DNA from: Cytophagaceae bacterium
GTDB taxonomy: Bacteria > Bacteroidota > Bacteroidia > Cytophagales > Spirosomataceae
Assembly: GCA_027491195.1 (NCBI GenBank)
Contig: JAIXWQ010000009.1
Location: 434,001-498,000 of the forward strand
Direction of reading: 5' to 3'
Length of the DNA: 64,000 nt
Position numbers and translations under genes: made by a program. The notes under the pieces are model-generated. The model was not told where the DNA came from. It saw only the letters and a program-made list of their open reading frames with translations, and did no database searches. Shown here in pieces: positions 6,384 through 50,444 of this stretch; position 1 is the stretch's first letter; every line of letters begins with the position of its first letter.

Positions 6384-6441
6384 ACTCTTGACTAGTGACT
6401 AGCGCGTCTAGTGACTAGCGACTAGTGACTAGTGACTATAG
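6384..6441. repeat. Tandem heptamer tract ACTAG(T/C)G overlapping the fba stop codon
   Basis: Units ACTCTTG, ACTAGTG, ACTAGCG, then a 9-nt variant, then ACTAGCG, ACTAGTG, ACTAGTG and ACTATAG follow each other in 7-nt steps (one 2-nt insertion). The last unit includes the fba stop codon (6436-6438 on the minus strand) and its final Leu codon, so the repeat has been in contact with the end of the coding sequence. Confidence 0.85.
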
Positions 6442-7518
6442 ATACTGATTCGCGTTCGTCGCGTTCAAGTCTTCGAAAGCTGTTTTTAAACGAGCTACTA
6501 AAGTCTCTTCGCCCTTACGTAACCAAACACGTGGGTCATAGTATTTCTTGTTCGGAGAATCGTCACCTGTTGGGTTACCGATTTGGCCTTGTAAATAAGC
6601 CTCATTTGCCTTGTAGAATCCTAAGATACCTTCCCAGAACGCCCATTGCGTATCTGTATCGATGTTCATTTTGATCGCACCATAAGATAATGCCTCACGG
6701 ATTTCCTCGCGAGATGAACCAGAACCACCGTGGAATACGAAGTTGATTGGTTTCTCTGCAGTTAAGCTATATTTCTCTTTGATGAATTCTTGTGAGTTCT
6801 TCAAAATGATGGGTTGTAACTTCACATTACCCGGCTTATAAACTCCGTGTACGTTACCGAATGCCGCAGCGATCGTGAAACGGTGAGAGATTTTGGACAA
6901 TACTTCATAAGCATAAGCCACCTCTTCCGGTTGAGTATATAATTTAGATGAATCAACGTCAGAGTTATCCACGCCATCTTCTTCACCACCTGTAACACCT
7001 AATTCGATTTCTAAAGTCATGCCCATTTTAGACATACGCTCTAAATATTTTGCACAGATTTCTAAGTTTTCTTCCAAAGGCTCCTCAGACAAGTCAATCA
7101 TATGAGAAGAGAACAAAGGTTGTCCCGTCTCAGCGAAGAACTTCTCACCAGCATCCAATAAACCGTCGATCCAAGGCAATAATTTTTTCGCACAGTGGTC
7201 TGTGTGTAAAACTACTTGTACACCGTATGCTTTCGCCATTTGGTGAACGTGGTAAGCACCTGAAATCGAACCTGCGATGGCAGCAGCTTGATTCTCGTTA
7301 GAAAGAGTCTTTCCAGCGTAGAAAATACCACCACCGTTAGAGAATTGAATGATTACTGGAGAATTCACGGCTTTCGCTGCTTCTAATACTGCATTCACAG
7401 TATCTGTACCGGTAACGTTTACAGCCGGTAAAGCGAATTGATTTTTCTTTGCGATCTCAAATAACTCTTGAACCGCATCTCCGTGCAACACTCCTGTTTG
7501 ATTGGTTAAACTTGACAT
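6436..7518 (-). CDS. fba: Class II fructose-bisphosphate aldolase
   Basis: A 360-residue zinc-dependent aldolase of the FbaA type that interconverts fructose 1,6-bisphosphate with glyceraldehyde 3-phosphate and dihydroxyacetone phosphate in glycolysis and gluconeogenesis. Visible marks are His-Thr-Asp-His-Cys-Ala-Lys-Lys-Leu near residue 110 (catalytic Asp and Zn His), a later Val-Phe-His-Gly-Gly-Ser-Gly-Ser-Ser phosphate/Zn segment and Asn-Ile-Asp-Thr-Asp-Thr-Gln. An in-frame ATG 117 bp upstream would add 39 unlike residues, but a -7 promoter box at 7577-7584 lies inside that extension, so the ATG at 7518 is preferred and gives the family length. Repeats flank both ends. Confidence 0.95.
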   Translation of the reverse strand: MSSLTNQTGVLHGDAVQELFEIAKKNQFALPAVNVTGTDTVNAVLEAAKAVNSPVIIQFSNGGGIFYAGKTLSNENQAAAIAGSISGAYHVHQMAKAYGVQVVLHTDHCAKKLLPWIDGLLDAGEKFFAETGQPLFSSHMIDLSEEPLEENLEICAKYLERMSKMGMTLEIELGVTGGEEDGVDNSDVDSSKLYTQPEEVAYAYEVLSKISHRFTIAAAFGNVHGVYKPGNVKLQPIILKNSQEFIKEKYSLTAEKPINFVFHGGSGSSREEIREALSYGAIKMNIDTDTQWAFWEGILGFYKANEAYLQGQIGNPTGDDSPNKKYYDPRVWLRKGEETLVARLKTAFEDLNATNANQYL

Positions 7519-7576
7519 AATGCTTTTTTTTCTTGGGAAATAAATAAAAACTGCCTGATTTTCAGCAACTAAAGCC

Positions 7577-7584
7577 CAAAAATA
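7577..7584 (-). promoter_or_regulatory. fba: -7 box of the fba promoter
   Basis: The minus strand reads TATTTTTG (TAnnTTTG) with its 3' end 59 bp before the fba ATG at 7518. No good -33 TTG is seen. Its position rules against a coding start at 7635. Confidence 0.55.
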
Positions 7585-7614
7585 CAAAAGATTATTCGTT
7601 TTTCGAGGGCTAAA

Positions 7615-7812
7615 CGCGCAAAAGCGCGAAGTCATCGCCTACGGCTTAGTCATCGCTGCGCGATTTAGTCACGACTGTGTCGTTTAGTCGCCACTGCGTG
7701 ACTTAGTCGACTTCGCCTTAGTCGCGACTGCGTCGCTTAGTCGCCTGCGGCCTAGTCGTCACTGTGTGACTTAGTCGACTTCGTCTTAGTCGCCTATGGC
7801 TTAGTCCGTAGG
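7615..7812. repeat. Array of about ten mini-palindromes separated by YTAGTC
   Basis: After a leading CGCGC-AAAA-GCGCG hairpin (7615-7628), the segment 7631-7806 consists of units made of arm, TNY loop, complementary arm and hexamer TTAGTC (once CTAGTC). Arms are 5 bp or 3 bp, giving unit lengths of 19 or 15 (the first unit is 18). Examples are GCGAC-TGC-GTCGC at 7724-7736, GTCAC-TGT-GTGAC at 7758-7770 and GCC-TAT-GGC at 7792-7800. Arm sequences differ between units, yet pairing is perfect in eight and has one mismatch in two (7690-7702, 7709-7717). It fills the gap upstream of fba; no coding frame is evident. Confidence 0.9.
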
Positions 7813-7896
7813 CATTCACCATTCACCATCTCTACTCTCTACTCTATACTCTATACTTTTGACTAGCGACTAGCGACTCCCGACTAGTGACTAATT
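7813..7896. repeat. Twelve consecutive 7-nt units in one register
   Basis: From 7813 the sequence divides into twelve heptamers without a phase break: two CATTCAC, one CATCTCT, then nine units beginning ACT (for example ACTCTAT at 7841 and 7848, ACTAGCG at 7862 and 7869, ACTAGTG at 7883). The unit sequence drifts along the tract while the 7-nt spacing is kept. It starts one base after the mini-palindrome array and ends 32 bp before the -33 element of the ribosomal operon promoter. Confidence 0.85.
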
Positions 7897-7928
7897 GCTT
7901 GATTTTCAAAATATTTTTAACGCACCTC

Positions 7929-7959
7929 TTGTTTGTATTATTTTTTTTCCTACCTTTGC
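7929..7959 (+). promoter_or_regulatory. Promoter of the ribosomal-protein operon
   Basis: TTG at 7929-7931, a 19-bp AT-rich spacer, then TACCTTTGC at 7951-7959, matching the Bacteroidota primary sigma consensus (TTG, N17-23, TAnnTTTG with a following C). Transcription would begin near 7965, about 360 nt before the rplC ATG. Confidence 0.8.
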
Positions 7960-7965
7960 ACTCCC

Positions 7966-8325
7966 GTTCGACAAACGCAGTTTTTTATTCAGAGAGAGGT
8001 TGGCAGAACTTCCCGAATTTATTTAAAACACATAAAATGCATGTCAAACAGGTCTTAAATCGAGGAAAGCTTGATTTTTGTGTTAGAACTGGTATTGATT
8101 GATGACCGTTGAATGCCCAGCCCATTAATTAAATATTAAGCTACACAAGGTGTTTTTTCACTGTTATCCACAGTGGGTTCATCTTGTCGCCTTATACCAA
8201 TTCTGCTTTTTTTTATTGTTTAGATTCCTATATCACGTTCAGTTGAACGATGATTTTGAATAAAAGTCTTACAACAAGCCACGGTAGCCTTGTAAGCATA
8301 TTTATATTTTAAATATTAACATATT
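7966..8325 (+). promoter_or_regulatory. Long structured 5' leader of the rplC operon with attenuator-like element
   Basis: No conserved protein is encoded in these 360 nt. Several pairings are visible. ACAAGGTG (8145-8152) pairs with CATCTTGT (8180-8187), enclosing CACTGT/ACAGTG (8159-8164, 8170-8175). AGAACTGGTAT (8085-8095) pairs with ATACCAATTCT (8194-8204, one mismatch), and eight T follow at 8207-8214, resembling a terminator. CGTTCA/TGAACG lies at 8236-8249. CTTACAA (8268-8274) pairs with TTGTAAG (8290-8296) 29 nt before the start codon. This layout suggests autogenous control by a ribosomal protein, by analogy with L4 control of the E. coli S10 operon; the ligand is unknown. Confidence 0.55.
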
Positions 8326-48409: not shown

Positions 48410-48898
48410 CTATTTTTTCTCTAAACGAAGCCCGATCGACACCATCCCCGCCAGCGTATCTACCCGCATGGATTGATCTAATTGAATTTTATACTTCCCA
48501 TTTTTGGGGAATTTCAGTGAGGGATAGACTAGAAAGTTTTTCTCATAGATATCGCCAAAACCCGCACCTTTCGGCTTCCCTGTCGTAGGATCATACAAAA
48601 TAGCTTCGGCTAAACCTCTTTGAACAATCTTCCCTTGCCCATCCATGATACTCGGGCTGAAATAAAGGTTATAGAAGGGGTAGGCATTATTTTGACGAAC
48701 CACTACATACAAAGCGTAGTTCACCAACGAATCTTCCACCGTCACCTCGAATTGAACCGGCTGCTTTTGAATCCAACCTGATTCAGGAAAACTAGAGGTC
48801 TCATCAATGGCCACATTCGTATTTCCGCAAGCAATGAAAAGTAGCTCTAGAAGGAAAATGCATCCAAGGCTAAGCTTCAGGGGTAGGCGCTGCACCAT
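48410..48898 (-). CDS. gldH: Gliding motility lipoprotein GldH
   Basis: A 162-residue lipoprotein with a hydrophobic signal (residues 7-21) and a lipobox ending Phe-Ile-Ala-Cys. The mature part resembles GldH: early Ser-Gly-Trp, Tyr-Ala-Leu-Tyr-Val-Val-Val-Arg-Gln-Asn-Asn-Ala-Tyr-Pro-Phe-Tyr-Asn-Leu near residue 65, and Gly-Lys-Tyr-Lys-Ile-Gln-Leu-Asp-Gln near 138. GldH is required for Bacteroidota gliding and stabilises the SprB-related machinery in Flavobacterium. The frame opens 63 bp earlier, but the ATG at 48898 puts the signal peptide first. It overlaps the ricT 3' end by 29 bp. Confidence 0.88.
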   Translation of the reverse strand: MVQRLPLKLSLGCIFLLELLFIACGNTNVAIDETSSFPESGWIQKQPVQFEVTVEDSLVNYALYVVVRQNNAYPFYNLYFSPSIMDGQGKIVQRGLAEAILYDPTTGKPKGAGFGDIYEKNFLVYPSLKFPKNGKYKIQLDQSMRVDTLAGMVSIGLRLEKK

Positions 48899-50444
48899 CT
48901 CTCGGAGGTCTTGGTTTGAACTTCTTTTTCTTCTTAAATGGCTTCGGTGTAGCCGTACCATCGGCTAAAGGAGCAGCTGCGTCTGGACGGTTCTCGCCCT
49001 CTGGACGTGGAGGACGTGGTCCTCTTTCTTGCCCTTCCGGTCTCGGTCCGCGCTCCGGTCTCGGCCCACGACTCTCGCCTTCCGGTCTTGGAGGACGAGG
49101 TCCTCTGTCTTGTCCTTCCGGTCTCGGCCCGCGCTCTGGTCTTGGCCCGCGGTTCTCGCCTTCTGGTCTTGGAGGACGTGGTCCTCTGTCTTGCCCTTCC
49201 GGTCTCGGTCCGCGCTCCGGTCTAGGACCTCGGTTTTCACCTTCTGGCCTTGGAGGGCGTGGTCCACGATCTGAACGAGGTCCGCCCTCGCGATTGCCCC
49301 GGTTATTTCTGTTATTGCGATTACCTGATTTCGCAGAGCCACCGTATTTCTTATCCATCCGCTCTAAATCAGAGTTCAATTCGGATAAGGTAGGTTTTTC
49401 TACCGCTGGAGCATCTGGATTCAGATCCTCGAACGACTCAGGAATAATTCCTTTTTTATTTAATTCAACGATTTCCGCTACGCGATCACAGCTCACCGGG
49501 ATCCAAATCGCCTCTTCACCCACAATCCCAAACCACATCATCCGCTTGAAGATATCGGTCTTCTGTAAGATTGCATCTCCACGCTTCGTTTTAAGGCGAC
49601 CCTCAATCGTCGGAATGCTTTTTAGGGCATCCATATAGGTCTCTAATTCGTAGTTCAAGCAGCATTTCAAACGTCCACATTGTCCGCTTAATTTGACTGG
49701 ATTCAGGGATAGGTTTTGATACCGAGCCGCTGAGGTAGTGACGTTTTTGAAATCTGATAACCAGGTAGAGCAGCATAATTCACGGCCACAAACCCCGATT
49801 CCGCCTAATCTGCCGGCTTCTTGGCGAAGGGAAATCTGTTTCATCTCGACACGAATCTTGAATTCAGTCGCGAGTAATTTGATCAGTTCACGGAAATCGA
49901 CACGGTCTTCTGAAGAATAGTAGAAGATGGCTTTAGACCCATCTGACTGGAATTCCACATCAGATAATTTCATGTTTAGCTTCAAATCACTGATGATTTG
50001 ACGTCCACGGTACATCGTAGGCAGGTCGCGCGCCATCGCTTGCTCGTGCTTCTCGATGTCCTTCTCGGTGGCTAAACGGAAGATAGTCTTGATTTTATCG
50101 TCGTCTTTAATGTTCTTCTTCAATAATTGAAGTCGAACTAATTCTCCCTGAAGGGAAACAACGCCTAATTGGGTTCCGCTGCTGGAATCGACCATCACGG
50201 AATCCCCCGTGTGCAATTCTAGTTGATCTGCATTGCGGAAATACTCTTTTCTGCCTCCTTTGAACTTCACTTCCACGATGTGGTAGCGTTGAAAAGAAGG
50301 GACGTCTAGGTCGGATAACCAGTCGAAGACGTTCATTTTATTGCAACCACCTGAGCCACAACCGCCATTGCTTTGGCAGCCTTTTACCTCTCCGCTAGTG
50401 CTGGTAGAGCCACATGACCCACTGGAACACGATTTACATGCCAT
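48870..50444 (-). CDS. ricT: RicT/PSP1-domain protein with Pro/Arg/Gly repeat tail
   Basis: A 524-residue protein. Residues 1-36 form a Cys-rich head (nine Cys in CxxC-like spacings). The PSP1/YaaT domain spans about residues 50-330, with Cys-rich motifs Gly-Val-Cys-Gly-Arg-Glu-Leu-Cys-Cys near 218 and Gln-Cys-Gly-Arg-Leu-Lys-Cys-Cys near 254, ligands for the Fe-S clusters of the B. subtilis RicAFT complex that affects RNA maturation. Residues 372-524 are a disordered Pro/Arg/Gly/Glu tail containing three 27-residue repeats. The gene overlaps purD by 11 bp and gldH by 29 bp. The role in Bacteroidota is not established. Confidence 0.88.
   Translation of the reverse strand: MACKSCSSGSCGSTSTSGEVKGCQSNGGCGSGGCNKMNVFDWLSDLDVPSFQRYHIVEVKFKGGRKEYFRNADQLELHTGDSVMVDSSSGTQLGVVSLQGELVRLQLLKKNIKDDDKIKTIFRLATEKDIEKHEQAMARDLPTMYRGRQIISDLKLNMKLSDVEFQSDGSKAIFYYSSEDRVDFRELIKLLATEFKIRVEMKQISLRQEAGRLGGIGVCGRELCCSTWLSDFKNVTTSAARYQNLSLNPVKLSGQCGRLKCCLNYELETYMDALKSIPTIEGRLKTKRGDAILQKTDIFKRMMWFGIVGEEAIWIPVSCDRVAEIVELNKKGIIPESFEDLNPDAPAVEKPTLSELNSDLERMDKKYGGSAKSGNRNNRNNRGNREGGPRSDRGPRPPRPEGENRGPRPERGPRPEGQDRGPRPPRPEGENRGPRPERGPRPEGQDRGPRPPRPEGESRGPRPERGPRPEGQERGPRPPRPEGENRPDAAAPLADGTATPKPFKKKKKFKPRPPRDGAAPTPEA
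48991..49272 (-). repeat. ricT: 81-bp tandem repeat in the ricT tail
   Basis: Units begin at 48991, 49072 and 49153, with a partial fourth at 49234, each 81 bp and so encoding a 27-residue block rich in Arg-Gly-Pro-Arg-Pro and Arg-Pro-Glu-Gly. The period is a multiple of three, so copy-number changes keep the frame. Antisense open frames here are by-products of the biased composition. Confidence 0.9.

Follow-up and report, generated by a model that had tools for sequence, protein, structure and literature searches.

Among described repeats, the GTAG REPs come near in architecture to the elements reported here: they are dispersed extragenic palindromes that occur in opposed orientations, use alternative complementary residues in their stems and can supply a TAG stop (PMC3733652, in excerpt). 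Intergenic heptamer repeats (TAACTGA and others) have been described from Beggiatoaceae, Cyanobacteria and Bacteroidetes, where they stand in tandem near gene ends (PMC4679880, in excerpt), and short-loop palindromic repeats fill intergenic DNA in Volvox organelles, in which they were deemed selfish (PMC2670323, in excerpt). The Volvox repeats have stems of 4-37 nt, TAAA or TTTA loops and nested insertions, and the excerpted account does not list a tandem array with a constant spacer among their features.

We describe a tandem array of mini-hairpins in a 64,000-nucleotide stretch of bacterial DNA (the window) and the family to which it belongs. Like REP and BIME elements, as far as the excerpted source describes them, the arrays are short, dispersed, extragenic, palindromic, variable in stem sequence and opposed in orientation, and sometimes provide a stop codon. 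Unlike them, the arrays have stems of only 3-5 bp that vary from unit to unit in tandem, a YTAGTC spacer, carriers in which no RAYT gene was detected, and no G-T excess on the strand that reads TAGTC. The arrays share tandem, intergenic placement with the heptamer repeats, and TAGTC heptamers lie beside and inside them, but heptamer repeats keep a fixed 7-nt period and lack hairpin units, whereas array units measure 15, 17 or 19 nt. We found such arrays described in none of the titles and abstract openings surveyed, although this does not prove that no description exists. Our best reading, to which we assign a probability of roughly one half, is that they are a REP-like, RAYT-free extragenic tandem repeat that would arise by slippage and be kept palindromic by hairpin-templated correction.

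The array in the window and its family

Direct reading bore out the preliminary description of ten units composed of an arm, a TNY loop (10/10), a complementary arm and YTAGTC (Table 1), with lengths of 19 or 15 nt except for the first, which is a 15-nt hairpin unit with three additional bases in front. Pairing is perfect in eight of the ten, the exceptions (GCCAC/GTGAC at 7690 and GAC/GCC at 7709) having one mismatch each. The setting is also as first described, between the divergent fba (ATG 7518, minus strand) and rplC of the ribosomal operon (ATG 8326), with GACTAG heptamer tracts nearby. Perfect units averaged 0.155 and never exceeded 2 in 200 first-order Markov resamples of the 64 kb, and averaged 0.0015 with a maximum of 1 in 2000 resamples of 7515-7912, against 8 observed; the array is thus not a chance product. 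The genome that carries it (G000) measures 2.49 Mb, and its fba protein is 89% identical over the best segment to that of Sandaracinomonas limnophila, with MAGs labelled Cytophagaceae bacterium also among the best matches.

Table 1. Features of the array locus and of the adjoining heptamer tracts (window coordinates)
Feature	Position	Strand	Length (nt)	Spacer end	Remark
Mini-hairpin array, ten units each followed by YTAGTC	7634..7806	+			Read directly
Unit 1, ATC then GCC-TAC-GGC-TTAGTC	7634..7651	+	18	7651	
Unit 2, ATCGC-TGC-GCGAT-TTAGTC	7652..7670	+	19	7670	
Unit 3, ACGAC-TGT-GTCGT-TTAGTC	7671..7689	+	19	7689	
Unit 4, GCCAC-TGC-GTGAC-TTAGTC	7690..7708	+	19	7708	Single C-A mismatch
Unit 5, GAC-TTC-GCC-TTAGTC	7709..7723	+	15	7723	Single A-C mismatch
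Unit 6, GCGAC-TGC-GTCGC-TTAGTC	7724..7742	+	19	7742	
Unit 7, GCC-TGC-GGC-CTAGTC	7743..7757	+	15	7757	
Unit 8, GTCAC-TGT-GTGAC-TTAGTC	7758..7776	+	19	7776	
Unit 9, GAC-TTC-GTC-TTAGTC	7777..7791	+	15	7791	
Unit 10, GCC-TAT-GGC-TTAGTC	7792..7806	+	15	7806	
Leading hairpin CGCGC-AAAA-GCGCG	7615..7628	.			Distinct from array units
7-nt tract TCTATAC	7829..7857	+			Possible relative, in the array's intergenic region
7-nt tract GACTAGC	7861..7893	-			Counterpart of the TAGTC array on the right-hand side, pointing inward
7-nt tract TGACTAG	6389..6438	-			Minus-strand reading starts with the fba TAG stop codon

The array in the window belongs to an extragenic tandem repeat family that is restricted to one lineage and dispersed in ten species. 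The initial observation is confirmed and widened from one locus to a family. A 601-base segment around it (7400-8000) has 70 matches in its own genome, its own site and heptamer tracts included. The pattern for 19-nt units, TAGTC-N5-TNY-G-N4-YTAGTC, matches 59 times in that genome and 11-63 times per genome in ten of the 38 genomes of the genus; one further genome (G031) has a single match and 27 have none, and the reversed pattern gave 0 or 1 match per strand and genome across all 38. Beyond the genus, single matches occur in six of 184 family genomes, and among 390 genomes sampled from the order multiple matches are confined to G000 and G001; the single matches elsewhere in the family and order are chance-level.

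Several other origins could be set aside. Orthologous arrays recur in several distinct assemblies, including one that is a single contig, which excludes an assembly artefact. Blastn found no match in phage and plasmid collections, and the nine viral contigs with a pattern match hold one each, with no further paired unit in the 150 bases around it, so that we reject a phage or plasmid origin. The view that the locus fits neither a CRISPR nor a terminator pattern held: in a CRISPR, unique spacers alternate with an unchanging repeat of at least about 20 bp, whereas here 6 nt stay constant and the part that varies is a palindrome from a limited set, and the GC-rich stem with a T run that marks an intrinsic terminator is absent from the window array, the two terminator-like sites found both lying in the rplC leader. 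Rfam gave no match in the window at the gathering score, which argues against a known structured RNA family; the array's sub-threshold match, to COG2908 RNA, reached 15.8 bits against the 58.7 required.

Arm covariation and possible selection on RNA

Covariation of paired positions is generally read as strong evidence for functional RNA. We pooled the stretches between successive TAGTC motifs in the window and 60 loci, mostly around known matches, a set ascertained for TAGTC and not for pairing. Unit lengths cluster at 15 nt (92 units), 17 nt (49) and 19 nt (272), equivalent to arms of 3, 4 and 5, and pairing is perfect in 88, 40 and 246 of these, respectively. Re-dealing the 3' arms of the 19-nt units in 5000 trials produced at most 58 perfect units, and 24 of the 47 distinct 19-nt arm pairs are perfect against a shuffle maximum of 7; a random 400 kb of G012 gave six perfect units of nine (shuffle mean 1.5, maximum 6), too few when taken alone. 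Between species, each represented by one genome, we made 35 comparisons across 24 locus pairs and nine G000 loci by heuristic unit alignment, in which one G000 unit may count in several comparisons. Of 106 aligned units, 40 were identical and 17 differed in the loop only; in the rest, 71 pairs had changed in both arms and 11 in one, as in ATTGC/GCAAT versus ATCGC/GCGAT or GTCGC/GCGAC versus ATCGC/GCGAT, while 121 units had been gained or lost. (An earlier, looser set of 42 comparisons, with 76 two-sided and 17 one-sided changes, contained array-to-array matches and is superseded.) The proposed covariation of the arms is strongly supported by these counts, and orthologous loci differ both by unit gain and loss and by arm changes that are mostly compensated.

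Two causes had been suggested for this covariation, selection for structure and a copying mechanism such as template switching, and the second fits somewhat better. Were selection acting on RNA, the arrays would lie in 3' untranslated regions or leaders and form transcript hairpins that serve in end protection, termination or translation, with pairing maintained by compensatory mutation. Covariation within and between genomes agrees with this, as do the gene 3' ends that lie behind most arrays (101/152), the over-representation of convergent gene regions and the 16 arrays whose start is the TAG stop codon that ends the gene behind. Compensatory evolution in RNA is, however, expected to pass through G-U. 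In the 407 units that carry no more than one mismatch, 7 mismatches are G-T, 15 are A-C and 11 are of other kinds on the TAGTC strand, the sense strand for most adjoining gene 3' ends; the G-T and A-C mismatches, 22 in all, lie in distinct units (122 distinct units, 565 pairs). The stems of 13 of the 14 distinct tRNAs at array loci (156 pairs) show 16 G-U-type and 2 A-C mismatches, a significant difference from the arrays (Fisher p = 0.0004). Since G-T does not exceed A-C, selection for an RNA read from the TAGTC strand is disfavoured. For RNA from the opposite strand the exclusion is less clear: G-U then exceeds A-C by 15 to 7 (p = 0.13 against equality, p = 0.15 against tRNA), at a G-U rate below that of tRNA (15/565 versus 16/156, p = 0.0002).

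Predicted folding likewise speaks against transcript hairpins. In 42 rebuilt arrays, the minimum-energy fold contained 19% of the intended pairs with RNA parameters and 53% with DNA parameters. Natural and permuted unit orders gave 0.194 and 0.169 with RNA parameters (natural higher in 17 and lower in 22 of 42) and 0.528 and 0.504 with DNA parameters (24 higher, 16 lower), so the natural order folds no better than permuted orders as RNA and hardly better as DNA. Together with the lack of an Rfam family at the gathering score and of a terminator-like site inside the window array, these results make RNA-structure selection an unlikely explanation.

The loop reads GNA opposite the TAGTC strand in 326 of 407 units and, in flipped form, on that strand in 12 (other loops, 69); 110 of the 122 distinct units close with a C-G pair. 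On G-C stems, GNA loops form exceptionally stable DNA mini-hairpins, with GCGAAGC melting at 78 degrees (PMC4686876, in excerpt), and this heptamer occurs on the opposite strand in 73 of 407 units, including the second commonest, ATCGC-TTC-GCGAT. The folding parameter sets, which include no C-GNA-G bonus, gave equal energies for both strands, and the argument from C-GNA-G stability thus rests on the literature.

Spacers, neighbours and placement

TNY hairpins collected without a TAGTC requirement stand six bases from their neighbour in 314 of 365 cases, and those six bases read TTAGTC in 264, TTGGTC in 19, CTAGTC in 12 and GTAGTC in one. Adjacent units rarely resemble each other: 2 of 297 share an arm against 26.7 expected, a count reached in 0 of 3000 permutations, and 4 differ by one base against 10.0 expected (permutation range 3-20), whereas units two apart are alike in 33 cases against 21.2 expected (range 9-33). 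By genome, identical neighbours numbered 0/70 in G000 (5.2 expected), 1/58 in G001 (10.2), 0/54 in G009 (4.4), 0/39 in G012 (2.5), 0/19 in G017 (1.8) and 1/30 in G037 (2.4), with counts in G025, G027 and G029 too small to use. This dearth disfavours growth by duplication of single units alone. At one G012 locus (L257, contig 1, ~1018755-1018930) a four-unit block of different hairpins occurs twice in succession, which indicates that arrays also grow by multi-unit duplication.

The preliminary description also proposed a shared origin with the neighbouring 7-nt tracts, and this is partly upheld: the two repeat types have TAGTC and inward orientation in common, and 9 of 60 seven-base TAGTC steps directly adjoin a hairpin step. 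Seven-nucleotide tracts of the AGTCNNT, CATTCAC, AGAGTAT and CTTTGTG types compose many intergenic regions (in the window and at L160-L179 and L128-L147), often with a stop codon as their starting point and the reverse-complement type occupying the other edge.

With genes taken as longest ORFs, not annotations, we classified 167 arrays, of which 152 lie between ORFs, 1 within an ORF and 14 at locus edges (these 15 were dropped); in these counts, arrays that share a locus or lie at orthologous loci do not represent independent observations. Of 79 arrays on the TAGTC strand, 65 lie closer to the left end of the intergenic region, and of 73 on the opposite strand, 64 lie closer to its right end, so that 129 of 152 point inward, a rule that is true for each gene configuration. 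Convergent gene regions hold 76/152 arrays against 35/252 regions in random samples, and divergent regions 20/152 against 83/252, which makes the divergent setting of the window array a minority case. In the random samples the inward bias is present by sites in both G000 and G012; by regions it is present in G000 (17 versus 4) and absent in G012 (12 versus 9), with G005 and G016 too small. Clustered hairpins in those samples numbered 10 triplets in G000 (shuffle maximum 7) and 8 in G012 (shuffle maximum 11), the latter within chance by this crude count. Ten hand-chosen neighbour proteins of G000 arrays were all ordinary or housekeeping proteins (GidB, LytTR, YcsF, E1 dehydrogenase, RecF-like, AMP-binding, Iso_dh, iPGM, outer membrane efflux and ADH_zinc).

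These regularities could reflect a selected DNA element, in which the arrays would be protein-binding or cruciform sites concerned with the nucleoid, supercoiling or transcription-unit boundaries and the spacer would be the recognised word. The near-invariant AGTC of the spacer, the inward orientation from both edges, the position kept between species and the enrichment between convergent genes are consistent with such a role. Units turn over fast, however, with gains and losses outnumbering aligned units, and the family is missing from 28 of the 38 genus genomes; we therefore regard this explanation as quite unlikely.

Transposition of a REP-like mobile element by a RAYT or another transposase is, in our assessment, very improbable: the arrays are dispersed, multicopy extragenic palindromes in opposed orientations, some with stop codons, as the excerpted source has it for GTAG REPs (PMC3733652), but their spacer is mostly TTAGTC in place of an unpaired GTAG or CGTC end tag, PF01797 (Y1_Tnp, RAYT) matched in 0 of 10 array-rich against 12 of 28 array-poor genomes of the genus (several of them incomplete; RAYT genes are common, not universal, in REP carriers), and arrays occupy orthologous places at the four loci compared by eye. 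Since the tag is missing and no RAYT was detected, we do not file the family as REP despite its REP-like architecture, and the view that it fits no REP or BIME pattern stands for tag and transposase and falls for the extragenic, dispersed, palindromic, stem-variable and stop-supplying architecture.

Proposed hairpin copying and its genetic setting

In quasipalindrome correction by template switching, one arm is rewritten from the other and loops can flip. This is a mutational process and not a repeat family, and it is not known to build tandem arrays. Slippage with hairpin-templated correction, the reading we prefer, would extend it as follows. The unit would be a 3-5 bp palindrome, usually C-GNA-G opposite TAGTC, followed by the nearly invariant YTAGTC; slippage across whole hairpins would add and remove units, and a mutated arm would be rewritten from its partner by a template switch within the hairpin, as for quasipalindromes, which would restore pairing and could flip the loop. 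Slippage over one extruded hairpin with its loss would leave identical neighbours rare and lag-2 repeats common, although selection against cross-pairing could equally produce the dearth of identical neighbours. Given the near-invariant spacer and the strict inward rule, drift alone is insufficient, and spacer constancy, inward placement and the avoidance of like neighbours are explained only in part. The arrays would be tolerated outside genes, perhaps the more readily in a genus in which neither SbcD nor XseA was detected; a host function would not be required, and transcript ends might be affected as a by-product.

The SbcD model (TIGR00619) matched in none of the 38 genus genomes against 161 of 184 other family genomes (150 over the cut-off), and the XseA model (TIGR00237) in none of the 38 against 50 of 184; both match in most of 14 control genomes. 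Neither SbcD nor the array family was found in 28 genus genomes, and four SbcD-less genomes of other genera (three G174 stretches, each under 1 kb, excluded) gave 4 hairpin triplets against a shuffle mean of 2.8 and a maximum of 7, in a small sample and by a crude count. SbcD absence is thus rejected as a sufficient cause, and since it extends more widely than the arrays its role would be permissive at most.

We raise only tentatively, and hold to be somewhat unlikely, the claim that the arrays constitute a type of bacterial repeat not described before, in which tandem mini-hairpins would stay palindromic through a DNA process, either hairpin-templated rewriting or a novel hairpin-copying enzyme of the clade, with inward orientation from intergenic edges, a near-invariant spacer and exclusion of identical neighbours as its own rules. 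The family shows very strong covariation at many loci in ten species, yet a G-U signature is missing from the strand that would appear in transcripts of neighbouring genes. Should DNA copying be the cause, these genomes hold a natural record of hairpin template switching and counsel caution in covariation-based RNA discovery. The apparent genus-wide lack of SbcD offers a genetic setting in which to test this. Should the arrays be functional instead, they represent an unrecognised class of extragenic elements.

Arrays upstream of fba vary in unit number and kind among G000, G001, G029, G037 and L009, and in G012 heptamers stand in place of the array. The fba-rplC flank distance is ~4 kb in G029, ~8 kb in G001 and ~9 kb in G037, with other reading frames between, and in these genomes (L110, L108 and L109, respectively) this stretch of 4-9 kb is flanked by arrays. 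Between the window array and rplC, positions 7920-8325 look conserved by eye in L016, include a terminator-like hairpin at 8157-8177 and have no Rfam match at the gathering score; this segment may be a ribosomal-protein leader. Elsewhere in the window, an 81-nt tandem repeat at 48987-49265 lies within a 524-aa reading frame (48870-50444, minus strand), in which it encodes an Arg-, Pro-, Gly- and Glu-rich segment.
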